Shown here in pieces: positions 3,546 through 40,985 of a DNA stretch of 44,953 nucleotides. The stretch comes from Chryseobacterium gleum. Its GTDB lineage: Bacteria; Bacteroidota; Bacteroidia; Flavobacteriales_D; Sanyastnellaceae. The DNA lies in assembly GCA_945862415.1 (NCBI GenBank), contig CAMAYP010000006.1:1-44953 (forward strand). Reading direction: 5' to 3'. The position numbers and the translations under genes were made by a program. The notes beneath the pieces were generated by a model. That model worked only from the letters and a program-made list of their open reading frames with translations, was not told the origin of the DNA and did not search any database. Each line of letters opens with the position of its first letter. Positions within the stretch are counted from its first letter, which is position 1.

Positions 3546-3616
3546 TTCTCATTGTGTTTCTGATTCTGATTCTCATTCTGGAATTTTTAGAATGAGAATC
3601 AAAAACACAATGAGAA
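3546..3616. repeat. Palindromic hexamer-arm repeat, copy A
   Basis: An imperfect inverted repeat. The outer 14-bp stem pairs 3546-3559 with 3603-3616 exactly, and the inner 12-bp stem pairs 3568-3579 (GATTCTCATTCT) with 3589-3600. The core is CTGGAATTTTTAG. The left arm carries one extra hexamer plus two bases, which would bulge. The conserved GGCGC tail seen in other copies is degraded here. It lies downstream of the four-helix-bundle gene and upstream of the amylase gene. Confidence 0.85.
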
Positions 3617-3654
3617 TTTGTATAGCGAATGGCTTTCCTTGAGCGTTGGGGTTG

Positions 3655-4026
3655 TTAATTCGATAAATTCCGAATCATAGCATACAGCATTTTTGAGATC
3701 TCGCTTGCTAGGGATAATTGAGAGTTGTGCGTTTGAATTTGGATGCTGTTTTCATGCCTTATTAAGTCTAGTATTGCAACACACTCGAATACCGAAGCTC
3801 TTGAGATGGTAAAAAAGTTCTTGCGGTCGGCAGGTGATTTTCGACCAGAGCCTTCAGCAATATTCAATACAATGCTGTATGATGCTCTGGACAGTTGATC
3901 TCTTACATGTCTCTCAAGTGATTTGTCTTTTGTTATAGCCCTGCAGCCAACATAGAAAATCTGAGCCTTTTTATATACTTCCAGTTTTTGGAAATCGAAT
4001 AGAATAGTTGTGGTTTCTACAGCCAT
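3655..4026 (-). CDS. Four helix bundle protein (S23/IVS-encoded family)
   Basis: The 123-residue protein matches the small family first described from intervening sequences of 23S rRNA genes. Its signature NIAEGSGR is present, preceded by the typical start FDFQKLEVYKKA and the helix RDQLSRASYSI. Relatives include the Avd accessory proteins of diversity-generating retroelements, but no reverse transcriptase or template/variable repeat is seen here. The biochemical role of the family is not established; Avd-type members bind nucleic acid. The gene is AT-richer than its neighbours and is flanked on both sides by the palindromic hexamer-arm repeats (copy A at its 3' side, copies B-D at its 5' side), which suggests it may have arrived or spread with them. 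Confidence 0.85.
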   Translation of the reverse strand: MAVETTTILFDFQKLEVYKKAQIFYVGCRAITKDKSLERHVRDQLSRASYSIVLNIAEGSGRKSPADRKNFFTISRASVFECVAILDLIRHENSIQIQTHNSQLSLASEISKMLYAMIRNLSN

Positions 4027-4135
4027 AACGTTTAGTTTTATGAGGCTAAACTAGCTCACATGCTTCAGGGCCTTGGCTCATAAAGTACTATAAATTATAG
4101 GAATATTATTCGGCAGTTATTCTGTTTCTTTCTCT

Positions 4136-4219
4136 CATTCAGTTTCTGCTTGTGTTTCTCTTTCTGGAAATTTTTAGAATCAGAAACAGAAACACAATGA
4201 GAATGAGTGGATGGCGCCC
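4136..4219. repeat. Palindromic hexamer-arm repeat, copy B (tandem array unit 1)
   Basis: The pyrimidine-rich left arm, core TTCTGGAAATTTTTAGAA and purine-rich right arm are made of 6-nt units (AGAATC, AGAAAC, ACAATG, AGAATG). A tail TGGATGGCGCCC ends the unit. Copies B, C and D follow each other at a period of about 80 bp and fill the 372-bp gap between the four-helix-bundle and photolyase genes. Confidence 0.88.
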
Positions 4220-4298
4220 TCATTCTGTTTCTGCTTGTGTTTCTCTTTCTGGAAATTTTTAGAATCAGAAACACAATGAGAATGAGGGGTCGGCGCTC
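4220..4298. repeat. Palindromic hexamer-arm repeat, copy C (tandem array unit 2)
   Basis: Same organisation as copy B, with one AGAAAC unit fewer on the right arm. The tail reads GGGTCGGCGCTC. The left arm is nearly identical to copy B, so the units probably arose by duplication followed by loss or gain of whole hexamers. Confidence 0.88.
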
Positions 4299-4390
4299 TT
4301 ATTCTGTTTCTGCTTGTGTTTCTCTTTCTCTTTCTGGAAATTTTTAGAATCAGAAACAGAAACACAATGAGAATGGGAGGTCGGCGCCCC
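4299..4390. repeat. Palindromic hexamer-arm repeat, copy D (tandem array unit 3)
   Basis: Same organisation as copies B and C, with one additional CTTTCT unit in the left arm. The tail AGGTCGGCGCCC ends less than 10 bp from the stop codon of the photolyase gene, which is read from the other strand. Confidence 0.88.
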
Positions 4391-4398
4391 CTTCAATC

Positions 4399-5907
4399 CT
4401 ACAAAAGACTCAACTGCTCACCCCCCTTTTTCTTCTTCACCACCGATTTTTTGCGAGCATGCGTCGCCACGATGCGCTTACCTTCTGCCTTCACGTCGTC
4501 TTTTTTGCGATGGCCCCAGATGGCTTCGCGAGCGTGGCGAGCGGCCGATTCAAGGGCAATGATCGGGGCAGGGTAGTCGGTGCTGATGTGCACGCCGCAG
4601 TGAGCTTGCTCTTCGGCCGTCATAAGATGGGGTTCGTGAATGTGTTCGGCAGGCACAGCGCGAAGTTCGGGCACCCACGCCTTGATGAATGCGCCTTCCG
4701 CATCGTGGTCGTGGCTTTGCTTCACAGGGTTGTACATACGCACGGTGTTGACGCCCGTGGTGCCTGCCTGCATCTGGAATTGCGGATAGTGTATGCCGGG
4801 CTCGTAGTCGAGGAAAAGTCGGGCCAGATGATAGGTTCCTGAACGCCAATCCTGATACAAGTGATGGCAGAAGAAACTCACCAACATCGCCCGCATGCGG
4901 AAGTTGATCCAACCGGTGGTGTGCAGGCATCGCATGCATGCATCGACGAGCGGAAAGCCCGTCAGTCCGTTTTCCCAGGCTTCGATAAGCGCGGAGTTGT
5001 GCGCTTTTACCAGTGACTCATAGCCGGCATTTACGCAACGCGTTTCGTAATCACATTCTACCTCGAACTTCTGGATGAAGTGATCTCGCCACTTGACACG
5101 CGTAAGAAAGCCATCGACCCAACGCTTACCCTCCGCAGCGCGGGGATGCTCCAAGGTATTTTGGTAAACCTGACGCACGCTCACGTTGCCCCATGCCAGA
5201 TAGGGCGAGAGGCGGCCACAGCTGATTCTGCTCTCTGCAGGTTTGGAGATGTGTTTATTATAGTTCACCCCGCGTTCTTCCATGAAGCTACTCAGGTAGC
5301 GAAGGGCTATGTCTTCACCTGCGGGTTGGAATTCGCGTGGATAGTCTGCCCAGGTTCTTTTTAATTCGTCGGGTAGGGCAAAGGGGTAATCCGGCATTAC
5401 AAGTTCCTGCCGACTGAACGTATTACGGATGATGGGGGCGTGCATGAATCCAAACCATTGCTTGTCCCACCCCTCGCGGTTTTTGATGCCGCGTTGAATG
5501 CCGTCGCGCTTACATTCATTCCAGCGAATGGCTCGCTCATCGCACCACCGTTGGACGGCCTTGTCGCGCAACCAGGTAAGGCGAACGCCGCTTTCGCGGT
5601 AGCTGAAGATGTTGAGGATGTCGAAATGTTCGGCTATGCCGGAGAACACATCCACCGCTTCACCATAGGATACGTGCACGCAACGGTTAGACGCTTTCAA
5701 TTTCTCGTTGACCTGCAACAGGCTCTGATATTGAAACTGAAGGTGACGCGTGCTGGTATCGGGGTGAGCAATCAACGACGGCTCGAAGCAATAGACAATG
5801 AAATAGTGCACACCCGCCTTCTCGGCCAGCATGAGCGGCTCATGATCCTGCGTGCGCAGGTCGCGCTTCATCCAGACGAGGTTGATAGGGTGCTTTGCTC
5901 GAGACAT
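4399..5907 (-). CDS. Cryptochrome/DNA photolyase family protein (FAD-binding)
   Basis: About 502 residues. The N-terminal alpha/beta photolyase domain begins INLVWMKRDLRTQDH. The C-terminal helical FAD domain carries TGFPLVDACMRCLHTTGW and NFRMRAMLVSFF, followed by the conserved YPQFQMQAGTTGVN and YNPVKQS. Photolyases use FAD and blue light to reverse UV pyrimidine dimers; a cryptochrome photoreceptor role is also possible and the motifs do not decide. The tail is lysine-rich and ends GGEQLSLL. I chose the ATG at 5907 because the longer frame begins only with a TTG at 5943 and adds non-homologous residues. It is flanked by palindromic repeats on both sides. Confidence 0.92.
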   Translation of the reverse strand: MSRAKHPINLVWMKRDLRTQDHEPLMLAEKAGVHYFIVYCFEPSLIAHPDTSTRHLQFQYQSLLQVNEKLKASNRCVHVSYGEAVDVFSGIAEHFDILNIFSYRESGVRLTWLRDKAVQRWCDERAIRWNECKRDGIQRGIKNREGWDKQWFGFMHAPIIRNTFSRQELVMPDYPFALPDELKRTWADYPREFQPAGEDIALRYLSSFMEERGVNYNKHISKPAESRISCGRLSPYLAWGNVSVRQVYQNTLEHPRAAEGKRWVDGFLTRVKWRDHFIQKFEVECDYETRCVNAGYESLVKAHNSALIEAWENGLTGFPLVDACMRCLHTTGWINFRMRAMLVSFFCHHLYQDWRSGTYHLARLFLDYEPGIHYPQFQMQAGTTGVNTVRMYNPVKQSHDHDAEGAFIKAWVPELRAVPAEHIHEPHLMTAEEQAHCGVHISTDYPAPIIALESAARHAREAIWGHRKKDDVKAEGKRIVATHARKKSVVKKKKGGEQLSLL

Positions 5908-5952
5908 GGTTTGGCGAAGAAAGTGAGGATGGGGGTTAAACAAGGTGGGGCG

Positions 5953-5968
5953 AGGACTGGGGACTGGA
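5953..5968. repeat. Short GACTGG iterated motif
   Basis: AGGACTGG followed by GGACTGG lies in the gap between the photolyase and hydroxyacid dehydrogenase genes, just before palindromic repeat copy E. It matches the motif at 3504-3530 and 11866-11899. Confidence 0.5.
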
Positions 5969-5982
5969 TGCGATTGGCGGGT

Positions 5983-6072
5983 ATTCTCATTGTGTTTCTG
6001 CTTCTGTTTCTCTTTCTGGAAATTTTTAGAATGAGAAACAGTAACAAAATGAGAATGAGTGGGGGCGCGCTC
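5983..6072. repeat. Palindromic hexamer-arm repeat, copy E
   Basis: A full copy: left arm starting ATTCTCATTGTGTTTC, core TTCTGGAAATTTTTAGAA, right arm of units AGAATG, AGAAAC, AGTAAC, AAAATG and AGAATG, then a tail AGTGGGGGCGCGCTC. It lies just upstream of the photolyase start and downstream of the hydroxyacid dehydrogenase. Confidence 0.85.
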
Positions 6073-6117
6073 TACAATCCTGAAATCCTTTCTCTGCGCC
6101 CCTTTGCGGTTAAAAAA

Positions 6118-6161
6118 AGAAACAGTAACAGAAACACAATGAGAATGAGTGGTCGGCGCCC
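6118..6161. repeat. Palindromic hexamer-arm repeat, half copy F
   Basis: Only the purine-rich right arm (AGAAAC, AGTAAC, AGAAAC, ACAATG and AGAATG units) and the tail AGTGGTCGGCGCCC are present. In place of the left arm stands CTCTGCGCCCCTTTGCGG (6092-6109), a sequence resembling the CTTTGCG motif in the hairpin at 16157-16209. The tail ends 8 bp from the stop of the hydroxyacid dehydrogenase gene. CAACTTTCAACTTTCAG follows it and overlaps the end of that gene. Confidence 0.75.
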
Positions 6162-6169
6162 TGCAACTT

Positions 6170-7117
6170 TCAACTTTCAGCCTTCAACCCCAGAATCTTA
6201 TCCGCCAGCACACTGCTCAGCTTCTCATACGACTCGTGTGTCCAACCGGCTATGTGCGGAGTGAGGACCACGTTCGGCAGGGCAATGAGATCGCGCATGG
6301 CCGTGAGCGATGGATCCTTTTCCAGACCTTCGAGCGAGGCTTTTTCATATTCAATTACATCGAGACAGGCTCCGCGCACTCGGCCGTTTTTCAATGCTTC
6401 GACCAATGCTGCTGTGTCGGTATTCTTTCCGCGAGCGGTGTTTATGAAATAGATAGGCTTGACAAACGAGTTGAAAAATTGCGCATCAGCATAATAGTGC
6501 GTTTCATCATTGAGCGGTAAGTGCAAACTCACGATATAGGCCTCTGCTTGAAGTTCTTCCAAGGAAACGGGAAGAGCCCATTCGTCACTAAACTGACTCT
6601 TATACTTGTCGTGGGCAATCACTCTCGCGCCAAAGCCGGAAAGCTTCTGGGCAAACGAACTTCCCATCAATCCATATCCGATAATACCAACGGTCTTGCC
6701 GGCTATCTCATAACCACGGTTCTCTTCGCGTGGCCAGCGCCCGGCGCGCACATCGGCATCGGCCTGTCGTAGGTTGTTCAGCAACATGAGCAACATACCC
6801 AAGGCATGTTCGCCCACCGCATCGCGGTTGCCTTCAGGCGAATTGTAAACAGCAATGCCTTTGCTCTCCGCATAGGCCACGTCGATGTTTTCCAATCCGC
6901 TACCGCTGCGTGCTATGAAGCGAAGGTTAGCAGCTGCGTCAATAAAGGCCTTGTCAATCTTAATGCGAGATCGCACCACCACACCGGCGTATTCGTGCGC
7001 CATAGCCAACAACTCTTCGCGTGTGGCTTCATACCGACAATCGCATGTATAACCTGCTGCTTCAAGCCGCCGGTGCAATACTTCGTGAACACTTTCAATG
7101 AATAATACCTTCGCCAT
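6170..7117 (-). CDS. D-2-hydroxyacid dehydrogenase, SerA-like
   Basis: A 315-residue NAD(P)-dependent dehydrogenase. Visible features are SGSGLENIDVAYAESKGI at the substrate domain edge, the nucleotide-binding VGIIGYGLMGSSFAQ, the catalytic Arg region INTARGK, and the catalytic His in LTPHIAGWTHES. The family includes 3-phosphoglycerate, glycerate and lactate dehydrogenases; with no ACT domain and no serC neighbour here, the substrate is open. The ATG at 7117 is preferred to the GTG at 7123 because it begins the conserved MAKVLFIE strand. The gene follows the glycosyltransferase by 23 bp, and that gap includes a -10-like TACTTTTG (7123-7130). Confidence 0.9.
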   Translation of the reverse strand: MAKVLFIESVHEVLHRRLEAAGYTCDCRYEATREELLAMAHEYAGVVVRSRIKIDKAFIDAAANLRFIARSGSGLENIDVAYAESKGIAVYNSPEGNRDAVGEHALGMLLMLLNNLRQADADVRAGRWPREENRGYEIAGKTVGIIGYGLMGSSFAQKLSGFGARVIAHDKYKSQFSDEWALPVSLEELQAEAYIVSLHLPLNDETHYYADAQFFNSFVKPIYFINTARGKNTDTAALVEALKNGRVRGACLDVIEYEKASLEGLEKDPSLTAMRDLIALPNVVLTPHIAGWTHESYEKLSSVLADKILGLKAES

Positions 7118-7140
7118 AAGCACAAAAGTAGGCGTATACG

Positions 7141-8148
7141 CTATTGCTTGAGCGCTGCCTTGAGAGTCGTCAGGTTCAGCTTGTGCTGATCCATTCGTCG
7201 ATGCGTGCCTTGCTTCGAATGATGGCGGGCCAGGTATTCTTGCTCCGATTGGCCGGGTGTAGGCACCAGCAATGCTTGCACTTCAAGGTTGTGCAAATCC
7301 ATGAGCGTGCTATACCCCGACCGGCATACCATGAGTTGAGCACCTTTGAGGGCAGTTGCCAGCTCAGAGTCGGGGAGGTCGTTCACAATGTGGACCATAC
7401 CGTTTTGCTCCTGAACGGGCTCTTCAGGCTTGCCGAGCACCAAAAGGGCAGGACATTCAAGTTGAGGTAACACGTTTCGAAGCTGATTTTCAAAACGAGT
7501 GCGCGTGGGCTCCGGTCCTGAAACGATGGCCACTACGCGATACGGTTTTTCGTCGGTATTGCTGGTTGCATGAAAACGGGAAAGTGGACCGATGAATAAG
7601 GCCTTCTTGTCCCACATCCCGCCGTGCGAGAGCAATCCGCTCAGGTTCGTTTCGCTTTGATAATCGGGCACCCAAAGTGCTCTGAATCGCTTGAGATAGG
7701 TATTCAGCCATTTCCCTACAAACCATCGAAACGGCCCTGGCACTCGAAGGTACAATTGATGAGTAATGAGTGTACAAGGCACACGGTCGTGATAAAGCCC
7801 ATACCGATTGTCGCTGCATACTTGATGGATGTTCTTCTCTTCAACGATGCGTTCCAACCACCGATGTTCGGCACGCACAACCCTACGCAATCTCAACAGT
7901 TGCTTTACCAGATGAGGAGTAATTGGGCCGTGTGTTGGATACGTAACGGCGTAGTCGGGAATGTCGGTGAGCAACTCCAGTTGCGGATAACGCGCCTTGA
8001 GCCAAGCTGCGCTTCTTCCGTTCGATGCAAGCACCACTTCGTGACCGGCTGCGAGCCAACGGTCAATAAGTGGTGCACACCGCGTTGCGTGTCCAAGTCC
8101 CCAATCGAGTGGGGCAACAAGAATCCGATGTGATGATTGCGACTGCAT
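7141..8148 (-). CDS. Glycosyltransferase, GT-B fold
   Basis: About 335 residues. The protein opens with HRILVAPLDWGLGHATRC, a GT-B style N-terminal nucleotide-sugar transferase motif, and has a C-terminal segment with LMVCRSGYSTLMDL and ALLVPTPGQSEQEYLA, like MurG-type UDP-sugar binding regions. It probably transfers a sugar from a nucleotide donor to an envelope acceptor; donor and acceptor are unknown. The ATG at 8148 is chosen: a longer frame starts at 8265 but would overlap the divergent tadA start and lacks homologous sequence. No membrane segment is evident. Confidence 0.8.
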   Translation of the reverse strand: MQSQSSHRILVAPLDWGLGHATRCAPLIDRWLAAGHEVVLASNGRSAAWLKARYPQLELLTDIPDYAVTYPTHGPITPHLVKQLLRLRRVVRAEHRWLERIVEEKNIHQVCSDNRYGLYHDRVPCTLITHQLYLRVPGPFRWFVGKWLNTYLKRFRALWVPDYQSETNLSGLLSHGGMWDKKALFIGPLSRFHATSNTDEKPYRVVAIVSGPEPTRTRFENQLRNVLPQLECPALLVLGKPEEPVQEQNGMVHIVNDLPDSELATALKGAQLMVCRSGYSTLMDLHNLEVQALLVPTPGQSEQEYLARHHSKQGTHRRMDQHKLNLTTLKAALKQ

Positions 8149-8203
8149 TGCACTAAAAAAGCGGTGCAAAGTACACGTATCTTGCTCACCAAATTGAGAT
8201 GTT

Positions 8204-8674
8204 GTGGAAGAAATTACCCCCGAGATTGATGAGAAATACATGCGCATGGCGATGCGAGAAGCCATGAACGCTTACGATGCCGACGAAGTGCCCATAGGGT
8301 GCGTCATTGTGTGCAAAGGCCAGATTATAGCAAGGGGATATAACCTTACGGAGCGGCTGCACGACTTTACGGCGCATGCGGAAATGCAAGCTTACACATC
8401 GGCTTCGGAGTTTCTAAATGGAAAGTCGCTGCACGAATGCACCTTGTATGTAACACTCGAACCTTGCGTGATGTGTGCGGGTGCAGCCTACAACACACGC
8501 ATCGGACGCATTGTTTTTGGTGCATACGATGAGAAGCGTGGTTTCAGCAAGTTTGGAGGCCATGCCGACAATGGTCAGGGCATAGTCCATCCACGTAGCG
8601 AAGTAGTAGGTGGTGTGCTGGCCGACGAATGCGCCGCACTGCTGACTAACTTCTTTCGAGACAAGCGCGACTGA
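8204..8674 (+). CDS. tadA: tRNA adenosine(34) deaminase TadA-like nucleoside deaminase
   Basis: The 156-residue protein has the zinc-dependent deaminase signature: HAE at residues 58-60 and PCVMC at 87-91, with His and both Cys as zinc ligands and Glu as the proton shuttle. It should convert A34 to inosine in tRNA-Arg(ACG). Guanine deaminase-like relatives exist, so substrate assignment is probable rather than certain. The frame opens with GTG at 8204; an ATG at 8240 (MRMAMREA) is the alternative. The GTG start gives a leader comparable to that of E. coli TadA. It is divergent from the glycosyltransferase gene. Confidence 0.85.
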   Translation: MEEITPEIDEKYMRMAMREAMNAYDADEVPIGCVIVCKGQIIARGYNLTERLHDFTAHAEMQAYTSASEFLNGKSLHECTLYVTLEPCVMCAGAAYNTRIGRIVFGAYDEKRGFSKFGGHADNGQGIVHPRSEVVGGVLADECAALLTNFFRDKRD

Positions 8675-8686
8675 CAAAGTTTTGCA

Positions 8687-8717: not shown

Positions 8718-8759
8718 CGCTGCTAAAAACAAGTACCGTCCCTCAATGAACCCTCGATT

Positions 8760-10237: not shown

Positions 10238-11866
10238 ATGCCAAAAGGAGTATTCCAAGTACCTGTGCCCGTCAACGAACCCGTGCGCAGCTATGCCGTC
10301 GGAACGGCCGATCGCGAGAATTTGTTGAATCAATACCGTGCTATGTACAACCAGGCTCCCATTGATGTGCCTATGTACATCGGTTCGGAATTGGTGCGCA
10401 CATCCGACAAGCGCACCATGTCGCCGCCACACGACCATAAGAAAGTACTTGGCCACTTCAATTGGGGCACAAAAGCGCACGTGTCGCAAGCCATTGATGC
10501 TGCTCTGGCAGCAAAAGGCCGTTGGTCGGCCATGGCATGGGAGCAACGCGCTGCCATTTTCTTGCGCGCTGCCGATTTACTCGCAGGTCCATACCGCATG
10601 CGCATGAATTCAGCAACCATGCTGGCTCAAAGCAAGAATGCGTTTCAGGCGGAAATTGATGCAGCCTGTGAGCTCATCGATTTCTTGCGTTTCAATGTAG
10701 CCTTTATGCAACAGATTTACCGCGACCAGCCGGGCAATCAACCCGGTGTTTGGAATCGCTTGGAGTATCGCCCGCTCGAGGGATTTGTATTTGCCATTAC
10801 ACCATTCAACTTCACGGCTATTGCAGCCAACCTGCCCGCCAGTGCCGCGCTGATGGGCAACACCGTTGTTTGGAAACCATCGGACACACAAGTCTACAGT
10901 GCGCATGTCATTATGGAACTTTTCCGTGAGGCAGGTTTGCCTGACGGCGTTATCAATATGATTACTGTAGAAGGCAAGGACGCCGGTGATGTGATTTTCA
11001 GTCACCCCGATTTCGCAGGACTTCATTTCACGGGATCCACGGGAGTGTTCAAACACTTGTGGAAGGAAATCGGGACCAACATCGAGAAGTATAAGACCTA
11101 CCCGCGCATAGTAGGGGAGACGGGAGGGAAAGACTTTGTCATAGCACATCCTTCGGCCAATCCGAACGAAGTTGCTACAGCACTCACTCGCGGCGCATTC
11201 GAGTTTCAAGGACAAAAGTGCAGCGCCGCAAGCCGTGGTTACATTGCCAAGTCGCTGTGGCCTGCAGTGAAAGAGCGTTTGATTCTAGATGGTGCAACCA
11301 TGAAAATGGGAACACCCGAAGATTTCGGCAACTTCGTCAATGCCGTAATCGACCAGCGCGCATTCGACAAAATCAAAGGATACATTGAGTATATCAAATC
11401 GCAGCCCGACGTTGAGATTATCACCGGCGGCAATTGCGACGACAGCGTGGGCTACTTCGTTGAGCCTACCATTGCTGTTACTACTAACCCGAAGTTCCGC
11501 ACCATGTGTGAGGAAATCTTCGGTCCGGTGCTTACCCTATATGTGTATGACGACGCGCAGTGGGCTGAGACCTTGCATTTGATCAACGATACGAGTGAGT
11601 ATGCGCTCACGGGAGCCATCCTATCGCACGACCGCTATGCCATAGAGCAGGCAACGCGTGTATTGGAAGGCGCATGCGGTAACCTCTACATCAACGACAA
11701 ACCAACCGGAGCCGTAGTAGGCCAGCAGCCCTTCGGCGGCGCACGCGCGAGCGGTACCAACGACAAGGCCGGCAGCTACCTCAACTTGTTGCGCTGGGTT
11801 TCACCGCGCACGATTAAGGAAACGTTTGTATCGCCGGTGGATTATCGGTATCCGTTCCTGGGTTAG
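10238..11866 (+). CDS. pruA: L-glutamate gamma-semialdehyde (1-pyrroline-5-carboxylate) dehydrogenase
   Basis: A 542-residue aldehyde dehydrogenase. The catalytic Glu motif GETGGKDFVI lies near residue 293 and the nucleophile Cys in GQKCSAASR near 326; FAITPFNFTAIAANLPASAA and FTGSTGVFK mark the NAD-binding region. Length and the C-terminal QQPFGGARASGTNDKAG agree with the stand-alone P5CDH type, which oxidises glutamate semialdehyde to glutamate in proline catabolism. No proline dehydrogenase (PutA/PRODH) gene is in the window, so the first step must be elsewhere. It has its own promoter-like sequence and no recognisable terminator; iterated GACTGG sequence follows the stop. Confidence 0.93.
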   Translation: MPKGVFQVPVPVNEPVRSYAVGTADRENLLNQYRAMYNQAPIDVPMYIGSELVRTSDKRTMSPPHDHKKVLGHFNWGTKAHVSQAIDAALAAKGRWSAMAWEQRAAIFLRAADLLAGPYRMRMNSATMLAQSKNAFQAEIDAACELIDFLRFNVAFMQQIYRDQPGNQPGVWNRLEYRPLEGFVFAITPFNFTAIAANLPASAALMGNTVVWKPSDTQVYSAHVIMELFREAGLPDGVINMITVEGKDAGDVIFSHPDFAGLHFTGSTGVFKHLWKEIGTNIEKYKTYPRIVGETGGKDFVIAHPSANPNEVATALTRGAFEFQGQKCSAASRGYIAKSLWPAVKERLILDGATMKMGTPEDFGNFVNAVIDQRAFDKIKGYIEYIKSQPDVEIITGGNCDDSVGYFVEPTIAVTTNPKFRTMCEEIFGPVLTLYVYDDAQWAETLHLINDTSEYALTGAILSHDRYAIEQATRVLEGACGNLYINDKPTGAVVGQQPFGGARASGTNDKAGSYLNLLRWVSPRTIKETFVSPVDYRYPFLG

Positions 11867-11899
11867 GGACTGGGGACTGGTTACTAGATACTGATGAGT
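11866..11899. repeat. GACTGG / TACTAGATACT iterated motif
   Basis: AGGGACTGGGGACTGG is followed by TTACTAGATACTGATGAG, directly after the dehydrogenase stop codon. It is the clearest copy of the GACTGG motif also seen at 3504 and 5953. Confidence 0.55.
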
Positions 11900-12493: not shown

Positions 12494-12579
12494 AAGCGCC
12501 ATCCATTCATTCTCATTTTGTTTGTGTTTCTCATACTAAAAAATTCCAGAAAGAGAATCAGAATCAGAAAGACAATGAG
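12494..12579. repeat. Palindromic hexamer-arm repeat, copy G (inverted orientation)
   Basis: Read on the minus strand it has the same order as the other copies: core TTCTGGAATTTTTTAGTA, units AGTATG, AGAAAC, ACAAAC, AAAATG and AGAATG, and a tail ATGGATGGCGCTT. It lies between two convergent genes, 18 bp from the SGNH hydrolase stop. Confidence 0.82.
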
Positions 12580-12597: not shown

Positions 12598-14028
12598 TCA
12601 GTCCCCATTTCCCGCACCCCACGCATCATATTCATCCAATATCGCCTTGGCAAGAAGCTCCGCCATTTTGCGCGCGCCGGCAGGAGTGAAGTGCGTGTAG
12701 TCGGGTCCGGCGTATTGCGGATTGTGATTGACCCAGGCGATCATTGAATTGCGTCCGCCCATGACAGAGAACATATCCCAAAAGGCACAGCCTTCGGCAA
12801 ATGCGGCTTCCTTCATGCCTTGGTTCAACTCTTCCAAGTAGGGCCACGTTTGCATTACACCGTTCACACTGGTGCTCATGTCGGATGGACCGATTACGAT
12901 AACGGCGGCACCCGGATGCATCGACTTGAAGCGTTGGATGTGCGTGCGGAAGTATGCTCCGTGCTTGCGAGCCGACTCGCGACCGCTGAGGTAGGGCACA
13001 CTGTTGCCTCCAAACTGAAGTATGAAAAGTCCTGCTTGCAACTCTTTGAACGCTGGTTGCATCGAGCCGGAATTGACACGAAAAAATGCACTTCCGTCGT
13101 TGCCGCGCAATGCGATGTTGCTCATGCCGACACCGCTCATACTATTGAGACTGATACCATAGATATCGGGGCTCGAAACAGCTTCAAACACAAAGCGAAT
13201 GCGATTCGTTTGCGGTACGGTAAAGCTTCGTGATGCAATCGAGGAGGTAACAGGCAGTGTCTCGGTGGCTACCGGCACATCGTCGGCCAAGACTGTAAGC
13301 TGACACGGATGATTGCTGTTGCCAAAAAACAAAACCGCTTCCTGAAACTGCTTGCAACGGGAGGTAGCCATGGAAGACGGACGGAATTCGATGTAGGCTT
13401 CGGTTACTCCCGAACTATCGGCTGCAGCCTTCACGGGAGTGAAGCGCGTGAAAGCGCACATGGGACCGTAGTTCTGATGCCCGCATTTGCCGTTGTCGTA
13501 GCCATACGAAGTGTAGCGTTTCCAGTTACTGCTTTGAGTGAGTATAACAGAACTGGGCGGTGCAACCGGCAACGGACAAATAAGCCCGCAGCCCGAACCA
13601 CCAAAGCGCGATTGCAGTTTGTCGCGCACGATGTTGGTCATGCGATCGCCTTCAATCTGTGAGTCGCCGTAATGAAACACATGCACTTTTCTTCCATTGG
13701 AGGCGTTGCTCAACGCTTCAAAAAAAGGGAAGAAGGAAGCGGAGTTCGCTTCGGCAAATTGAAGCGATGCGATTGTTTCGGTTCGTTGAATGGAACGTGA
13801 GGTATCGGCAGTTGCTGTTGCCGTCGAATCGAACATGGCCAAATGCGCATCGATGTCTGTCACCGCAGGAATAGCCGCTGAATCGGGTTGCTCGTTCCAA
13901 CTCTTAAATCGAAACGTGTAGCCCGCTACTTGCAAGCCATCCGTTGGAAATACCATTGCAATAGCCCCGCATACCACGGCCACTGCAATGAGAAAAAGCA
14001 AAGTCTGTTGCGGACGAATAACCTTCAT
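12598..14028 (-). CDS. SGNH/GDSL-type hydrolase, membrane-anchored
   Basis: About 476 residues with an N-terminal hydrophobic anchor (about 10-28), so the bulk should be periplasmic. Block I is HYGDSQIEGDR (nucleophile Ser123), a Gly/Asn block is LQFGGNSVPYL, and the catalytic Asp/His pair is in GPDYTHFTPAG near residue 446. The insert between blocks (about 200-330) looks like a beta-sandwich. Relatives act as esterases on O-acetylated glycans or peptidoglycan. I use the ATG at 14028; a TTG two codons earlier is less likely. It follows the OmpA-family gene by 36 bp on the same strand, suggesting co-transcription and an envelope role. Confidence 0.85.
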   Translation of the reverse strand: MKVIRPQQTLLFLIAVAVVCGAIAMVFPTDGLQVAGYTFRFKSWNEQPDSAAIPAVTDIDAHLAMFDSTATATADTSRSIQRTETIASLQFAEANSASFFPFFEALSNASNGRKVHVFHYGDSQIEGDRMTNIVRDKLQSRFGGSGCGLICPLPVAPPSSVILTQSSNWKRYTSYGYDNGKCGHQNYGPMCAFTRFTPVKAAADSSGVTEAYIEFRPSSMATSRCKQFQEAVLFFGNSNHPCQLTVLADDVPVATETLPVTSSIASRSFTVPQTNRIRFVFEAVSSPDIYGISLNSMSGVGMSNIALRGNDGSAFFRVNSGSMQPAFKELQAGLFILQFGGNSVPYLSGRESARKHGAYFRTHIQRFKSMHPGAAVIVIGPSDMSTSVNGVMQTWPYLEELNQGMKEAAFAEGCAFWDMFSVMGGRNSMIAWVNHNPQYAGPDYTHFTPAGARKMAELLAKAILDEYDAWGAGNGD

Positions 14029-14064
14029 GGGCAATGAATCTCCAGGGCGCGAAGTAACGCTTAA

Positions 14065-35774: not shown

Positions 35775-35776
35775 TG

Positions 35777-35816
35777 GGGAGGATTACGGATTTCAAATTA
35801 CGTATTACGAATTAGG
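35777..35816. repeat. Iterated ATTACG sequence
   Basis: GGATTACGGATTTC, then AAATTACGTATTACGAATTAGG, split into ATTACG-type units, upstream of the TPR gene. It is AT-rich, intergenic and of unknown role. Confidence 0.45.
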
Positions 35817-35866
35817 GCAATTACCAAAACACATATTCCCTAACACCTAATACCTATTCACTAACA

Positions 35867-35900: not shown

Positions 35901-35917
35901 AAAATTCTATCTGCCTG

Positions 35918-36235
35918 TTACAGCAGTGCATCCATTTTTTCGGTTAGAACATTTTTAGGTACGATACCTACGCTCTTATCCACTATTTCACCACCTTTCA
36001 GGAAGATGATAGTAGGGATGTTACGGATTCCGAAACGGGTGCTGATTTCAGGATTCTCGTCAACGTTTACTTTGCCTACTACAGCTTTGCCGTCGTAGTC
36101 GTTTGCAATTTCGTCAACGATGGGGCCTACCATGCGGCAGGGGCCGCACCATTCTGCCCAAAAGTCAATCATCACAGGCTTTTCGCTGTTTTGAACCAGC
36201 TCGGCGAAGTTTTGATCCGTGATTTGTGTTGCCAT
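35918..36235 (-). CDS. trxA: Thioredoxin
   Basis: 105 residues, the standard length. The redox motif is FWAEWCGPCRM and the cis-Pro loop is IRNIPTIIFLKGG. It reduces protein disulfides in the cytoplasm, fed by thioredoxin reductase (not in window). No signal peptide. It appears monocistronic, with a -10-like TACATTTG at 36334-36341 and a clear terminator downstream. Confidence 0.96.
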   Translation of the reverse strand: MATQITDQNFAELVQNSEKPVMIDFWAEWCGPCRMVGPIVDEIANDYDGKAVVGKVNVDENPEISTRFGIRNIPTIIFLKGGEIVDKSVGIVPKNVLTEKMDALL

Positions 36236-36333
36236 TCTATATTCGTTTTAATTTAAAATCTATTCCATCAAATACAATCAACAGGCCATTCAGTTTACGC
36301 TGTCAATTAGTCTGTTCTCTTCAAAATTGGCGA

Positions 36334-36341
36334 CAAATGTA
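36334..36341 (-). promoter_or_regulatory. -10-like box upstream of trxA
   Basis: TACATTTG on the minus strand, about 98 bp before the ATG. No TTG lies at the expected spacing, so this is a partial match only. Confidence 0.35.
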
Positions 36342-36389
36342 CATTCAGAAAACAAGTGCCGTTCGTTTTTTTGCTAACAGCACAGTTAC

Positions 36390-37079
36390 TTATTTATTGC
36401 CTGTTGAGTCGATGCTGATTAGTTCAACTTCGAAAATGAGCGTTGAGTAAGGCTTAATGACCGGGCTTGGTGATTGAGCGCCGTATGCCAGGTTTTCTGG
36501 AATGTAGAATTTGTATTTGCTACCCACGCTCATCAACTGAACGCCTTCTGTCCAACCCGGAATCACTTGGTTAAGACCGAACGATGCAGGCTCGCCGCGA
36601 TCAACCGAACTATCGAATACGGTGCCGTCGATAGTTGTTCCATGGTAATGTACTGTCACCATATCTGTTGCCTGAGGCTTCATTCCGGTTCCTTCATTCA
36701 TCACTTGATACTGAAGACCACTCGCGGTTGACATTACACCTGGCTTGCTCTTGTTCTCAGCCAGAAATTTCACCCCTGCGTCCTTATCAACAGCGGCCTT
36801 TGCTTCTTGTTTCTTCATCATAACCTCTTGGATAAAAGCCTCCGCTTCTTGCAACTCCATTGCACCGGTGCTATCCTTTTGGTCTTTCATACCCTTAATA
36901 AGCATTTCGTAGTTCAAGTCACTCAGTTCGCTCTGCATAAAGCTGCTACCGATACTCAGACCGATGGTGTAGCTCAAGCTGTCACGCTGATCTTTCATTT
37001 TGACATTGCTGACTTTGCTTTGTTCGCAGCTGCTGAGCATGCTACCGCAAGCAACGAGGCAGAGAATAAATTTTTTCAT
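36390..37079 (-). CDS. FKBP-type peptidyl-prolyl isomerase lipoprotein
   Basis: 229 residues. A lipobox (LSSCEQ, Cys18) follows the signal peptide. An N-terminal FKBP-N dimerisation region (about 30-110; SYTIGLSIGSSFMQSEL) precedes the FKBP domain (VTVHYHGTTIDGTVFDSS; GWTEGVQLMSVGSKYKFYIP; LAYGAQ; LIFEVELISI). It would fold exported proteins in the periplasm. Its promoter faces that of rpsO. Confidence 0.93.
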   Translation of the reverse strand: MKKFILCLVACGSMLSSCEQSKVSNVKMKDQRDSLSYTIGLSIGSSFMQSELSDLNYEMLIKGMKDQKDSTGAMELQEAEAFIQEVMMKKQEAKAAVDKDAGVKFLAENKSKPGVMSTASGLQYQVMNEGTGMKPQATDMVTVHYHGTTIDGTVFDSSVDRGEPASFGLNQVIPGWTEGVQLMSVGSKYKFYIPENLAYGAQSPSPVIKPYSTLIFEVELISIDSTGNK

Positions 37080-37111
37080 GGTAATAGTAGAATAATGGTA
37101 TTTTAAGGGCG

Positions 37112-37140
37112 CGAAAGTAGGGGCATTGGTTCAATTTCAA
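37112..37140 (-). promoter_or_regulatory. Bacteroidota-type promoter for the FKBP gene
   Basis: On the minus strand TTG (37140-37138), an 18-bp spacer and TACTTTCG (37119-37112), 33 bp before the ATG. It is divergent from the rpsO promoter. Confidence 0.6.
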
Positions 37141-37167
37141 GCGCATGTAAAAAAAACTTCACAAACT

Positions 37168-37200
37168 TTGGTGACAAAGCGAGGCCGTGTGCTACATTTG
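37168..37200 (+). promoter_or_regulatory. Bacteroidota-type promoter for rpsO
   Basis: TTG (37168-37170, within TTTG), a 22-bp spacer and TACATTTG (37193-37200). The -7 box matches TAnnTTTG exactly; it lies 69 bp before the ATG. Confidence 0.65.
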
Positions 37201-37268
37201 CACCCCTTAAAAACCGAAAGTTTTCGGCAAACAGGATTCACATAACAATCACTTACATAAGTATTAGC

Positions 37269-37538
37269 ATGTATCTTACATCAGAAAAAAAAGAAGAGAT
37301 TTTCAAGAAACACGGAAAATCTGAGAAAGACACTGGTTCATCTGAAGGCCAGATTGCATTATTCTCATTTCGCATCAGCCACCTCACAGAACACTTGAAG
37401 GTGAACAAGAAAGACTTTGGCACACAGCGCAGCCTTATCCGTCTTGTAGGTAAACGTCGCAGCTTGCTCGACTACTTGCAGAAGACAGATATTGCCCGCT
37501 ATCGTGCTATTGTTAAAGAGCTTGATCTCCGCAAATAA
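37269..37538 (+). CDS. rpsO: 30S ribosomal protein S15
   Basis: 89 residues, the usual length. Typical S15 sequence: GSSEGQIALFSFRISHLTEHL and GKRRSLLDYLQKTDIARYRAIV. S15 binds 16S rRNA early in 30S assembly. It stands upstream of pnp, the arrangement known from many bacteria, and ends in a strong terminator. Confidence 0.98.
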   Translation: MYLTSEKKEEIFKKHGKSEKDTGSSEGQIALFSFRISHLTEHLKVNKKDFGTQRSLIRLVGKRRSLLDYLQKTDIARYRAIVKELDLRK

Positions 37539-37557
37539 TATCGCGCAAACTGCGCTA

Positions 37558-37600
37558 GCGAAAGGGCAATTGAACACAATTGCCTTTTCGCGTTTTTTTT
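37558..37600 (+). terminator. Intrinsic terminator of rpsO
   Basis: GCGAAAGGGCAATTG pairs with CAATTGCCTTTTCGC (one G-T pair) around an AACA loop and is followed by a run of eight T. It lies between rpsO and pnp, so pnp either depends on read-through or has its own weak promoter. Confidence 0.9.
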
Positions 37601-37630
37601 AACCGACGTTTTTATCCGAAAAAAGAAGCA

Positions 37631-39775
37631 ATGAACTACGAATTGGTAACCCAAACCATAGACTTGGGAGATGGTCGCCCGGTCACAATTGAAACCGGTA
37701 AACTAGCCAAACAGGCCAATGGCTCTGTTGTGGTAAGACAAGGAGATACAATGTTGTTGGCTGCAGTTGTAGCTAGCACACAAGCTAAAGAAGGTGTCGA
37801 TTTTCTGCCGTTGACGGTGGAGTATCGCGAAAAATACGCGGCCGCAGGTCGTTTTCCGGGTGGCTACTTCAAGCGTGAAGCTCGTCCATACGATGACGAA
37901 ATTCTCGTAGCCCGCCTCATCGACCGCGCATTGCGTCCGATGTTCCCCGATGATTTTCACGCGGAGGTTCAAGTTGTAGTTAACTTAATTTCTGCCGATA
38001 AAGAGAACATGTCTGATAGCCTTGCCGGTTTGGCAGCTTCAGCTGCTCTTGCGGTTTCTGACATTCCATTCAACGGACCAATTTCAGAGGTTCGTGTTGC
38101 TCGTATCAACGATCAAATCGTAGTGAACCCAACTTGGGCTCAGCTTGCTACTGCCGACCTTGAGTTGATGGTTGCCGGTACTTTGGATAGCATCGTGATG
38201 GTGGAAGGAGAGATGAAGGAAGTTTCTGAAGCCGAAATGATTCATGCTCTCGAAATTGCTCACGAAGCAATCAAAGCCCAGTGTCGTGCTCAACAGGAAA
38301 TGGCCTCTAAGGTTGCTAAGTCAAGTCCAAAACGCAGCTACGATCACGAGCCGAAAGATGAAGAGTTGAAGAAGCGCGTATGGAGCGAGTGTTATGAGAA
38401 CTATTACACTACAGCTAAAACGCCGTCAGACAAGACTACTCGTTCGGATGCATTTCATGCTATACAAGAAGCATTCGAAGCTCAGCTTTCTGATGAGGAA
38501 AAGACTTCTAAACGTTTCTTAATCAATAAATACCACCACGACTGTTTGAAAGATGCCATGAGGAATATGATCCTCAATGAAGGTATTCGTTTAGATGGCC
38601 GCAGCACTACTCAGATTCGCCCAATTTGGAGTGAAGTAGGGTATTTGCCGGGTGCACACGGTTCGAGCGTTTTCACTCGCGGTGAAACGCAATCACTGAC
38701 CACGCTTACATTAGGTACAAAACTCGACCAACAGATGATTGACAGCGCGGTTATGCCACGCGAAGATCGCTTCTTGTTGCACTATAACTTCCCGCCATAC
38801 AGCACAGGCGAGGCGCGTCCTATTCGTGCAACCAGCCGCCGCGAAATCGGCCACGGTAACTTGGCTCTTCGTGCGTTGAAGCCAGTTATTCCACCTCAAA
38901 GTGTATGTCCTTACGCAATACGCATTGTGTCTGATATTCTTGAGTCGAATGGTTCTTCATCTATGGCAACCGTTTGTGCTGGTACATTGGCACTTATGGA
39001 TGGCGGTGTGCAGATTTCTGCACCTGTTTCCGGAATTGCGATGGGTATGATTACTAACGAGGACAACTCGAAGTATCAGATTCTCTCCGATATCTTGGGC
39101 GACGAAGATCACCTCGGCGATATGGACTTCAAAGTTACCGGCACTGCCAAAGGAATTACAGCATGTCAGATGGATATCAAGATCAAAGGCTTGAGCATGG
39201 ACATGGTGAAGAATGCGTTGGAACAGGCCCGTCAAGGTCGCCTTCACATCTTGGACGAAATGCTCAAGACCATGGATAAGCCGGCAGACGATTACAAGCC
39301 ACATGCACCACGCATTGTTTCGCTTGAAATCCCGAACGATATGATTGGCGCTGTAATTGGCCCCGGTGGTAAAATCATTCAGGAAATCCAGAAAACAACC
39401 AGCACAATCATCACCATCACAGAAGTGGATAACAAAGGTGTTGTTGAGATTGCGTCGGCCAATAAAGAGAACCTCGATGCAGCCTTGAAACGAGTGCGCA
39501 GCATTGTTTTCCCTCCGCAAATTGAAGTTGGGGAAATTTATGAGGGTGTAGTCAAGAATATCCAAGCTTTCGGTGCGTTCGTTGAGATCCTTCCGAAACA
39601 AGACGCGCTTTTGCACGTATCGGAAATCGACTGGAAGCGAATAGAAGATGTTCGTGATGTGCTCAAGGAAGGTGATAAGATTAAAGTTCAAGTGATTGGT
39701 AAAGACCCTAAGAACGGCAAGTACAAATTGTCGCGCAAGGTTTTGATGCCAAAGCCTGAGGCTCAATCGAACTAG
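37631..39775 (+). CDS. pnp: Polyribonucleotide nucleotidyltransferase (PNPase)
   Basis: About 714 residues. Two RNase PH cores are visible ([31 protein letters not shown], then [18 protein letters not shown]), then a KH domain ([15 protein letters not shown]) and a C-terminal S1 domain ([22 protein letters not shown]). It degrades RNA 3' to 5' with phosphate and can add tails. The ATG at 37631 is used, since the longer frame starts with TTG inside the rpsO terminator. A short hairpin follows the stop. Confidence 0.97.
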
Positions 39776-39785
39776 GCTGACATTG

Positions 39786-39809
39786 GATAGGTTTCAAACC
39801 TGTCTTTTT
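39786..39809 (+). terminator. Terminator-like hairpin after pnp
   Basis: GATAGGTTT and AAACCTGTC pair (one T-G) with almost no loop and are followed by five T. The minimal loop makes it a weak candidate. Confidence 0.5.
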
Positions 39810-39870
39810 AGCCAACTTGCTTGAATCAAAAATGCTTAAACAGGGTTTTCCCTACAATTGAAAACAATAG

Positions 39871-40740
39871 ATGAGGCAATTAAAAATCACTAAACAGGTA
39901 ACGAACCGGGAAACCGCTTCGTTGGACAAATACCTGCAGGAGATTGGTCGTGTAGACTTGATTACTGCAGAAGAGGAAGTGGAGTTGGCCAAGCGCATCA
40001 AGGCCGGAGATCAGGTTGCTTTGGAGAAACTTACAAAAGCCAACCTTCGTTTTGTGGTTTCTGTATCGAAACAATACCAAAACCAAGGCTTGAGCTTGCC
40101 CGATTTGATTAATGAGGGTAACCTCGGACTTATCAAGGCAGCACAGCGCTTTGACGAAACGCGTGGTTTCAAATTCATCTCGTATGCGGTATGGTGGATT
40201 CGTCAATCGATTTTGCAGGCGTTGGCCGAACAGTCACGTATTGTTCGTCTTCCCCTCAATAAGATTGGTTCCATCAACAAAATCAACAAGGCATTCGCCA
40301 AGTTGGAGCAGGAGTTCGAGCGTCCGCCTACACCCGCTGAATTAGCTGAAGTGTTGGAAATGACATTGGACGAGGTGAAGCAGTCGATGCGCAACAGCGG
40401 TCGTCACGTATCGATGGATGCTCCATTGAAAGACGGTGATGATAGCAGCAGCACGATGTATGACGTACTTCAGACAAATGATACTCCTTCACCGGATACT
40501 GATTTATTGCATGAATCGTTGCGTAAGGAAATCGAGCGTTCGTTGCGCACGCTTACCAGCCGCGAAGCAGATGTGGTTCGTTTGTACTTCGGTTTGAATG
40601 GTGAGCACCCACTTACCTTGGAAGAAATCGGAGAGCGCTTTGACTTGACACGCGAACGTGTGCGTCAAATTAAAGAGAAGGCAATTCGCCGATTGAAACA
40701 CACCAGCAGAAGTAAAATCTTGAAGTCCTATTTGGGATAA
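39871..40740 (+). CDS. rpoD: Primary sigma factor RpoD/SigA (sigma-70), Bacteroidota type
   Basis: 289 residues, beginning near region 1.2 with no region 1.1, as typical in Bacteroidota. Region 1.2: [25 protein letters not shown] (first part). Region 2: [20 protein letters not shown] and [20 protein letters not shown] (region 2.3-2.4). Region 3 follows, and region 4.2 is [20 protein letters not shown]. It directs RNA polymerase to TTG/TAnnTTTG promoters, several of which are seen here. It follows pnp by 95 bp and ends in a terminator. Confidence 0.96.
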
Positions 40741-40790
40741 CATCATTCAAAAGACCAGAGGCATTTTGTTCATTGCCGATAGGTTAAACA

Positions 40791-40826
40791 TAGCAAAGGC
40801 TCCGGAGACGGGGCTTTTGCTATTTT
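40791..40826 (+). terminator. Intrinsic terminator of rpoD
   Basis: TAGCAAAGGCTCC pairs with GGGGCTTTTGCTA (two wobble pairs) around GGAGAC and is followed by TTTTT. Confidence 0.8.
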
Positions 40827-40901
40827 TGGTACTGATCACTGGGTGACGATACCTAAATAGCGTTGACCGACACCTCGGCTCCAATCGGTGACTGCGCAAC
40901 G

Positions 40902-40985
40902 TCTCATTCTGATTCTAACTGTGTTTCTCTCTCTGGAATTTAGAAAGAGAGGCAGCAACAGAAACACAAACACAAACAGAATGAG
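40902..40985. repeat. Palindromic hexamer-arm repeat, copy H (diverged)
   Basis: CTCATTCTGATTC starts the left arm; the core is CTCTGGAATTTAGAAAGAG; the right arm is built of AGAAAG, AGAGGC, AGCAAC, AGAAAC, ACAAAC, ACAAAC and AGAATG units, one of the longest right arms seen. The GGCGC tail is replaced by AGGTTTGCCGAGG. It sits between rpoD and rpsA. Confidence 0.78.

Follow-up and report, generated by a model that had tools for sequence, protein, structure and literature searches.

The palindromic hairpins dispersed through this 44,953-nt stretch of DNA (the window) are probably either the flanking repeats or, where no gene is present, the solo traces of a small intergenic element that carries a PF05635 gene. 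Because the hairpin arms are tied to one clade of this gene family, two orthologous sites show reciprocal states and the arrays of other clades follow the clade, the window arrays look like the ends or remnants of IVS-like S23 elements.

Hexamer hairpins and the gene between them

An earlier note, made from the sequence alone, counted seven complete copies plus a half copy, a count that a motif scan and inspection of the window bore out. The hairpins and the gene among them are arranged as follows.

3544..3618, + strand: copy A, full hairpin (Y arm, GGAATTTTT loop, R arm), located 3' of the PF05635 gene
~3556..4141, unstranded: the gene together with the equivalent of one hairpin, missing at the orthologous photolyase/amylase site in genome G004 (whole-interval difference 588 nt)
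3655..4026, - strand: PF05635 (23S_rRNA_IVP / S23) gene of the FDFQKLEVYKKAQ type, with hexamer hairpins on both sides (Pfam E 4.7e-22)
4118..4205, + strand: copy B, hairpin located 5' of the PF05635 gene; core part 4134-4205
4221..4284, + strand: copy C, full hairpin
4294..4375, + strand: copy D, full hairpin; B-C-D repeat with an 85-nt period
5982..6057, + strand: copy E, full hairpin
6118..6147, + strand: copy F, half copy (R arm) fused to AACCGC/GCAGAG-type sequence
12508..12577, - strand: copy G, full hairpin with its core on the - strand
40905..40983, + strand: copy H, divergent full hairpin

The palindrome core TTCTGGAAATTTTTAGAA has five matches in the window at up to three mismatches, against an expectation of 0.19, and none of 100 shuffles yielded at least five. 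The arms keep a hexamer register and copies differ by whole hexamers, as do orthologous copies in the window's genome (G000) and G004; the commonest arm length is five words (19 of 38 copies on each side). The GGCGC tail is present in B, C, D, E, F and G and absent from A and H, as the earlier note described, but the final AGAATG that it called invariable is usual rather than universal: the two ends of copy A read AGAATT and AGAACG, and the Y side of G ends in ACAATG. The intergenic placement near gene 3' ends also held for the hairpin family, and no T-run directly follows the stem at the window copies, which are thus not ordinary intrinsic terminators. A known RNA family was rejected, with no Rfam match in the window at gathering score. 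When each copy was folded, the full copies other than G gave z-scores from -7.4 (A) to -3.2 (B, equalled by 1 of 200 shuffles); copy G hardly did better than chance (z -1.33, matched by 17 of 200).

What had to be corrected is the claim that the repeats come with no ORF: copies A and B-D flank a gene of the S23, or 23S-rRNA-intervening-sequence-protein, family, and this unit of gene plus hairpins, located in the window between photolyase and amylase genes, is found again at further sites and in further genomes. The AF2 model of the encoded protein (pLDDT 91) has its best matches in 2gsc and 2rld, both with listed chains A-E, followed by Avd and entries for diversity-generating retroelements (DGRs). 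The predicted structure is a four-helix bundle of the S23/Avd fold, and the protein is probably a pentamer. Avd functions in DGRs as a cofactor of the reverse transcriptase, and the window protein model has the same fold. Although the model matches Avd and the DGR reverse transcriptase complex by fold, with weak E-values, a retroelement built from a reverse transcriptase and an Avd-like cofactor seems very improbable here: RVT_1 (PF00078) is found in none of the eight genus genomes, whereas the same search finds it in 3 of 14 control genomes.

Further copies occur elsewhere in the genome, with 37 matches to AGAAACACAATGAGAATGA at up to three mismatches against 3 for the reversed pattern, and the hexamer family is present in all eight genus genomes examined. 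For the hairpin detector, the control on reversed strings was not clean (27 versus 106 redundant hits). In a tally of 38 copies based on our own greedy ORF calls, some of them spurious, 18 lay between tandem genes, 6 between convergent and 3 between divergent genes, 6 at edges and 5 inside predicted ORFs; a preference of the hairpins for convergent genes is not clear from 6 convergent against 18 tandem settings.

Hexamer phasing itself is ordinary short-tandem-repeat behaviour, and one might see in the whole family neutral repeats grown by slippage, the palindrome being an accident of back-to-back arrays. The whole-word indels between orthologues fit such an origin, as does the lack of covariation between the arms of one copy: within-copy pairing was no better than pairing with the arms of other copies (p 0.65 for 15 own-genome copies, 0.98 for 23 others), which also lends no support to compensatory evolution between the arms of a copy or to copying templated by the hairpin. 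Slippage alone is nonetheless improbable as the full account, as the inverted architecture is ordered across the family with a similar loop from copy to copy, no arms of at least 22 bits occur in 378 kb of random stretches from three genus genomes, and the arms are coupled to one protein clade.

Coupling of the arms to one PF05635 clade

At 24 of 25 FxF[Q/R]-type PF05635 genes a hexamer arm (AGAxxx) of at least 20 bits occurs within 700 nt, as against 0 of 17 FxF[E/K] genes, 4 of 8 other members of the subfamily and 0 of 78 PF05635 genes from outside it. The Q/R loci whose flanks are long enough, 24 in number, fall into 21 site clusters. The 50 subfamily loci comprise 30 returned loci and 20 from the top of the search, among them the window gene and three other genus genes, and leave out some similar-scoring matches (for example, G292:C33 and G198:C6); other PF05635 matches from a phylum-wide sample of 395 genomes served as controls. 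Within the genus, where 35 rows reduced to 33 distinct PF05635 loci, hairpins stand on both sides of 3 of 3 FDFQKLEVYKKAQ-type genes and a one-sided array at one MFEFQ-type gene, and the remaining 29 loci have no hexamer array at the same threshold; these 29 include a truncated, arm-less subfamily-like gene (G003:C13, L297). At six of the genus control loci, and at two from the subfamily, a flank was shorter than 100 nt.

Of the 50 subfamily genes, 25 have direct repeats at their flanks (11 of 17 in the FxFE type), compared with 9 of 78 other PF05635 genes; such repeats also occur at 7 of 29 genus control genes. A few FxFE flanks inspected by eye seemed to hold other hexamers, a candidate left unsupported at the lag-6 threshold (6% of 17).

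One point against the favoured element is the distribution of gene and arms. The genomes compared are mostly fragmentary metagenome bins; in the genus the FxFQ-type gene was seen in only four of eight and hexamer arms in all eight; G007, with 22 seed matches second only to G000, has no FxFQ-type gene in an assembly that is 76% complete. The subfamily is patchy, because the 395-genome phylum sample gave no further strong FxFQ members (the next best match scored 60 bits). PF05635 was present in 4 of 11 genomes picked from a locus list.

G000 and G004 can be compared at two orthologous sites, and there they are reciprocal: one genome has hairpin-gene-hairpin, the other hairpin(s) alone. At the window site the junctions of the missing interval (3556..4141) fall within hairpin arms and, having been read by eye, are approximate. 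The third gene site, G006:C181, offers no clean empty site because the downstream neighbour differs too in the other genomes, in which hairpins and gene are both missing. The gene-carrying unit, present or absent at two sites, comes without a transposase; neither movement nor a mobilising enzyme was seen, and a target-site duplication could not be defined at the two present/absent sites.

Short intergenic palindromes invite comparison with REP/BIME sequences and with REPINs and their RAYT, which are described in PMC3733652 as dispersed, mosaic intergenic hairpins that can supply stop codons and are linked to a small gene family. The window hairpins are likewise dispersed, intergenic, mosaic, stop-supplying and coupled to a small gene family, but a different one, with no GTAG/CGTC tag and a variable number of words. 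That the hairpins are REP/REPIN elements moved by RAYT (Y1) transposases is the least probable of the readings we weighed, even with Y1_Tnp genes in 8 of 8 genus genomes. Hexamer arms lie near only 1 of 17 Y1 loci, and there within a 3'-end array; by eye, about half of the Y1 genes sit amid GC-rich palindromes of their own, such as CCGAAGCCCGnAGGGCTTCAC, and the copy ends have no GTAG or CGTC tag, their recurrent end being AGAATGAGTG. The family fits none of the REP classes tested (RAYT/REPIN).

Words of other clades

Beyond the hexamers, arrays of 7- or 8-mers lie within 500 nt of PF05635 genes at 27 of 29 loci in the genus, 11 of 20 in the order and 19 of 29 in the phylum, compared with 3 of 17 Y1-transposase loci and 4 of 21 isolated ORFs. 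Genus arrays are mostly inverted, with a purine array before the PF05635 gene and its complement after it, and at 20 of 22 genus loci the inverted score of upstream against downstream flank exceeds the 99th percentile of mismatched pairs. Outside the genus this arrangement weakens (order 7/20, phylum 14/29) and upstream arrays are no longer purine-rich (4/7 and 6/12). FxF subfamily flanks show direct similarity (23/48) more often than inverted (13/48), in a scoring that covered the 119 of 128 loci with long enough flanks. Among loci labelled as outside Bacteroidota, 6-9-mer arrays lie within 500 nt at 9 of 12; with one Hymenobacter locus added the count is 10 of 13, against 2 of 13 for far windows.

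The array words follow the PF05635 protein clade. Across different sites, flank similarity climbs with protein similarity, with 43/45 pairs in the highest class, then 65/124, 100/497, 45/796, 2/400 and 4/400, where whole 300-nt flanks rather than words alone were compared, 400 pairs were sampled in each of the two lowest classes and outer flanks cannot always separate independent sites from inherited ones. Branches of the S23/IVP family tend to have their own flanking word.

The window holds further arrays of this kind.

4390..4401, - strand: TAGGATTGAAGG, start of an 8-mer array holding the TAG stop of the photolyase gene 4399-5943(-)
5954..5967, + strand: heptamer words GGACTGGGGACTGG adjoining copy E
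6164..6188, - strand: GTTGAAA heptamer array holding the TGA stop of gene 6170-7123(-)
11864..11880, + strand: GGGACTG heptamer array at the stop of an aldehyde dehydrogenase gene
35783..35856, unstranded: two heptamer arrays, ATTACGG.. and ACCTAAT..

By eye, GTTGAAA is the word of genus VQRFEDL-type PF05635 genes and GGGACTG that of genus DFDKMSYAF-type genes, and the words at 35783..35856 resemble those of IKELSYSF-type and KSYAFAxK-type genes.

Arrays occur at the 3' ends of genes or directly after tRNA genes, and a host role at transcript ends deserves weight: the hairpins and arrays could be terminators, 3'-end stabilisers or BIME-like structures in which PF05635 genes merely land because arrays are safe spots. 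In the examples seen, arrays start at or just past stop codons; in other Bacteroidota the hexamers belong to a T-run terminator after tRNAs; all 35 seed-tRNA pairs, from loci chosen for containing the array seed, lie on the tRNA 3' side; and hairpins exist without a gene. The same choice of loci underlies a set of 13 ORFs, two of which are pieces of one gene (L104), whereas the PF05635 arm and 7/8-mer counts come from loci not so chosen. Unbiased gene samples give weak backing to the idea that every gene here ends in a word array: one lies near the stop (at least 12/14 matches) in 4 of the 21 window genes, 2 of 60 others in G000, 0 of 30 in G003 and 2 of 35 in G006. We consider such a host origin unlikely, as flank words track the PF05635 clade at different sites and a passive landing site could not know the clade; the split in hexamer arms between Q/R and E/K and the far fewer 7/8-mer arrays at genus Y1-transposase genes and isolated ORFs speak against it as well.

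Known systems and a possible protein-to-word code

The closest parallel to the PF05635-carrying element that we favour is the intervening sequence (IVS) of 23S rRNA with its S23p ORF, which PMC4990558 describes as a short, selfish-looking element with complementary ends. The window unit has an ORF of the same S23/IVP family (PF05635), and the RNA of a 7-mer element in G005 (L278) is predicted to form a single long stem around the gene. In contrast to an rRNA IVS, elements of the FxFQ clade carry a separate, complete and self-complementary hairpin at either end instead of a single stem around the gene, the window unit lies not inside an rRNA gene but between protein genes, the arrays in general are intergenic at gene or tRNA 3' ends, and the ends are clade-specific tandem words with many gene-less copies. 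Short-word arrays have also been described on their own. Heptamer repeats in Nostoc and Xanthomonas form intergenic tandem arrays, some overlapping stop codons (PMC4692102), and TAACTGA repeats occur in Beggiatoaceae, cyanobacteria and five Bacteroidetes (PMC4679880). These are likewise intergenic tandem arrays of short words, and GGGGACT is also a word here. The terms 'S23', 'intervening sequence' and 'four helix' are absent from the main texts of both papers, and their available portions link neither repeat to a PF05635-type gene.

We propose that the element would behave like rRNA intervening sequences and would be tolerated because it sits in transcribed but dispensable 3' regions. Its protein may recognise the word of its own clade, in RNA or single-stranded DNA, perhaps with one word per subunit, and the lasting association of word and protein would follow from that recognition. 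Solo hairpins would be what is left once the repeats recombine and the gene is lost, and slippage by whole words would produce the phase-locked changes in length. More tentatively, and with the odds somewhat against it, there may be a protein-to-word code in which each PF05635 clade recognises, maintains or spreads its own 6-9-nt tandem DNA or RNA word (AGAAAC, GAGTGGC, GGGACTG, AGGATTAC, GTGAAATG and others), the hexamer arms being lost with the change from FxFQ to FxFE.

To our knowledge, intergenic short-word arrays in bacteria have been reported for years with no cause given. These genomes commonly carry stand-alone S23/IVP genes, and the linkage of genes and arrays offers each a testable partner. 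Our findings suggest a broader class of small elements, located at transcript ends and next to tRNAs, of which rRNA intervening sequences are the conspicuous part. If the protein-to-word code is true, it would define a class of selfish element in bacteria that had not been recognised before, and would explain many orphan intergenic 6-9-mer arrays of Bacteroidota, perhaps also those of cyanobacteria, Xanthomonas and Beggiatoaceae.

Hexamer palindromes and transcript ends

All seven full palindromes (A–E, G and H) and the half copy (F) that an earlier note had read from the sequence were found in the window where it placed them, with five matches to the palindrome core against 0.19 expected (none of 100 shuffles reached five). 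Their arms are indeed built of hexamers (AGAxxx/ACAxxx), and copies differ by whole hexamers, as do orthologous copies in the window's genome (G000) and a second genome of the genus (G004). The rule that an arm always ends in AGAATG was slightly too strong: copy A ends in AGAATT/AGAACG, and copy G has no AGAATG on one side. Compared with their shuffles, six of the seven full palindromes are much more stable when folded, copy G being the exception (z −1.33, 17 of 200 shuffles equally good); we saw no covariation between the arms within copies. Further copies exist. The arm pattern matched 37 times across the 208 contigs (2.66 Mb) of the window's genome versus 3 for the reversed pattern, and at up to two mismatches it was present in all eight available genus genomes and in 15 of 40 genomes overall, with no match to the reversed control. 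In 378 kb drawn at random from three genus genomes there was no arm of at least 22 bits, by a hexamer profile and thresholds that we set for this analysis. Most of the genomes compared in this work are draft bins.

The exact array seed occurs in at least 115 stretches of named genomes, mostly labelled Bacteroidota; some of the other labels look like chance matches or mislabelled bins. The arrays are located at transcript ends. Among the matches listed (115 loci, 795 kb, 43 tRNAs, 138 seeds), 28 loci contain a seed and a tRNA within 200 nt of each other, 35 such pairs in total, and in all 35 the seed is 3′ of the tRNA. Many of these loci have an intrinsic terminator with purine hexamers within its hairpin and a pyrimidine hexamer array directly after the T-run, and several arrays are followed by an ORF with a start like MFDFQKLEVYKKAK, encoding the same kind of protein as window ORF 3655-4026(-), of family PF05635 (23S_rRNA_IVP, S23 family). 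At four loci (L310, L321, L331 and L347, in G214, G161, G212 and G150) the PF05635 gene follows a tRNA-Leu and has a second tRNA 3′ end and/or terminator downstream, a layout that would fit integration of an element at the end of the tRNA accompanied by duplication. Another locus (L327, G188:C3) carries terminator, word array and PF05635 gene twice in tandem, the second gene matched only in part. At 4390-4401, 6164-6188 and 11864-11880, a word array supplies or overlaps the stop codon of the preceding gene, and in G006:C5 (L264, 5723-8168) a near-perfect 8-mer palindrome, TAGGATTGTAGG ... CCTACAATCCTA, stands alone between two convergent stop codons.

PF05635 clades and their words

Clade-linked word arrays flank PF05635 genes. 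Among the 115 loci listed, 11 of 13 PF05635 ORFs lie within 600 nt of a seed, a zone holding 17.5% of bases, although two of the 13 are pieces of one gene and their loci were selected for containing the array. The genus set, 33 distinct PF05635 loci in eight genomes, is independent of that selection. Here all three FDFQKLEVYKKAQ-type genes (window, G004:C187 and G006:C181) have hairpins on both sides, and a fourth gene, of MFEFQ type (G003:C32), is preceded by a tRNA terminator and array; only one of the other 29 loci has even a 19-bit arm. In the order set (299 genomes; 50 subfamily loci taken from the top of the match list), arms of at least 20 bits within 700 nt accompany genes starting FxF[Q/R] in 24 of 25 cases, those starting FxF[E/K] in 0 of 17 and the remaining subfamily members in 4 of 8, versus 0 of 78 controls (20 lower-similarity PF05635 loci, 29 other genus loci and 29 from a phylum-wide sample). 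Grouped by outer-flank homology, the 24 Q/R loci whose flanks were long enough fall into 21 site clusters. tRNA 3′ ends face 21 of 50 subfamily loci versus 0 of 78 controls, and direct repeats flank the gene in 25 of 50 versus 9 of 78 (0/20, 7/29 and 2/29).

Other clades have other words. Additional intergenic arrays of the window (GGGACTG, GTTGAAA, AGGATTGT, ATTACGG and ACCTAAT) are, by eye, the same as or similar to arrays around other PF05635 clades. Arrays of 7- or 8-mers lie within 500 nt of 27 of the 29 other genus genes (on both sides of 19), the comparison figures being 3/17 for Y1-transposase genes and 4/21 for isolated ORFs taken from random regions; the order and phylum samples gave 11/20 and 19/29, and 1.3% of random genus windows (n = 300) hold period-7 arrays. 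Arrays of 6–9-mers were found within 500 nt of 10 of 13 PF05635 loci in genomes labelled UBP7, Caldiserica, Fodinibius and Hymenobacter (9/12 without Hymenobacter; far windows 2/13), a sample in which 4 of 11 genomes tried contained PF05635.

Words of PF05635 clades in the genus (within a clade, some loci may represent one inherited site)
KSFEFG/KSFVFG clade: word GAGTGGC, 4 genus loci
DFDKMSYAF clade: word GGGACTG, 2 genus loci
IKELS[FY]SF clade: word GGATTACG, 2 genus loci
VKSYRDL clade: word AGGATTAC, 2 genus loci
IRSY[KN]DL clade: word GTGAAATG, 3 genus loci
VQRFEDL clade: word GTTGAAG, 3 genus loci
FDFQKLEVYKKA clade: words AGAAAC/AGAATG, genus

For pairs at different sites, ordered by falling protein similarity, similarity of the whole 300-nt flanks exceeded the 99th percentile in 43/45, 65/124, 100/497, 45/796, 2/400 and 4/400; the two lowest classes were sampled, and tRNA-linked and truncated loci may still have a common site history.

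The arrays before and after a gene are complementary to each other. In the genus, the preceding array is purine-rich in 22 of 23 cases and the following one pyrimidine-rich in 20 of 23, a pattern lost or partial beyond it (order 4/7 and 4/10, phylum 6/12 and 13/14). The inverted upstream/downstream score exceeds the 99th percentile of mismatched pairs at 20/22 genus, 7/20 order, 14/29 phylum and 13/48 FxF-subfamily loci; the direct score does so at 3/22, 0/20, 2/29 and 23/48, respectively.

About half of the 17 genus RAYT (Y1) loci (L228-L244) have GC-rich palindromes of their own around them, for example CCGAAGCCCGnAGGGCTTCAC or AGCCCCATAGGGGCG, which are a separate REP system of the same genomes. 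A minisatellite within a MITE is reportedly present in Porphyromonas (PMC4596501). In the open PMC library, our searches found no link of PF05635/S23 genes to intergenic word arrays; the sources compared, in part, were PMC4990558 (23S rRNA intervening sequences, IVSs), PMC4692102 (Nostoc/Xanthomonas heptamers), PMC4679880 (TAACTGA repeats), PMC3733652 (REP/BIME, REPIN, RAYT) and PMC5041132.

Sites with and without the gene

Gene presence is variable at fixed sites, and solo arrays and hairpins are common. An FxFQ gene was seen in only four of the eight genus genomes, hexamer arms in all eight; G007 (76% completeness) has 22 seed matches and no FxFQ gene that we could find. G004:C187 reads hairpin–gene–hairpin, and the orthologous G000:C123 site has one hairpin and no gene, with flanks 92% and 79% identical and an interval differing by 610 nt; in alignment, the single hairpin corresponds to the first G004 hairpin in its 5′ part and to the second in its 3′ part. 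The photolyase/amylase site shows the reciprocal state: hairpins–gene–hairpin in G000 (the window) versus three hairpins and no gene in G004, a 588-nt difference with both junctions within hairpin arms (placed by eye, since the computed alignment misplaced the gap). Together the two sites resemble solo-LTR footprints or insertion with duplication. In G001, G005 and G007 the photolyase/amylase site holds other word arrays and neither gene nor hexamer hairpins, and for the gene's third site (G006:C181) we found no cleanly empty equivalent.

At the GDSL-lipase 3′ end (12598-14034; L282), G001 has a GGGACTG-type PF05635 gene, and G000 only a GGGACTG remnant and copy G. The terminal word array of the 2-hydroxyacid dehydrogenase gene in G001 is unlike that in G000 and G006. 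GGCGCC-like linkers between different word modules at G000 and G004 loci suggest a fixed joint between elements.

The protein and a possible mechanism

The AF2 model of the window protein (pLDDT 91) matches 2gsc and 2rld of the S23 family and, with weaker E-values, Avd (4dwl) and DGR RT–Avd complexes; a search of the eight genus genomes for PF00078 reverse transcriptases gave no match. Chains A–E are listed for both 2gsc and 2rld, which fits pentamers, and A, B, D and E for 4dwl. On either side, arms are most often five words long (19/38 each). TRAP reads triplets, and a protein ring reading five words in a similar manner would be an attractive possibility.

For the hexamer element, the predicted fold is one hairpin per end. 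RNA of a GAGTGGC-type element is predicted to form one long stem around the gene (z −10, 20 shuffles), and such a gene-enclosing stem is like an rRNA IVS. We propose that these are small IVS-like elements, probably retained at harmless 3′ positions, in which protein and word would be partners, and that recombination and slippage among words may have given rise to the solo, tandem (B–C–D) and half (F) copies.
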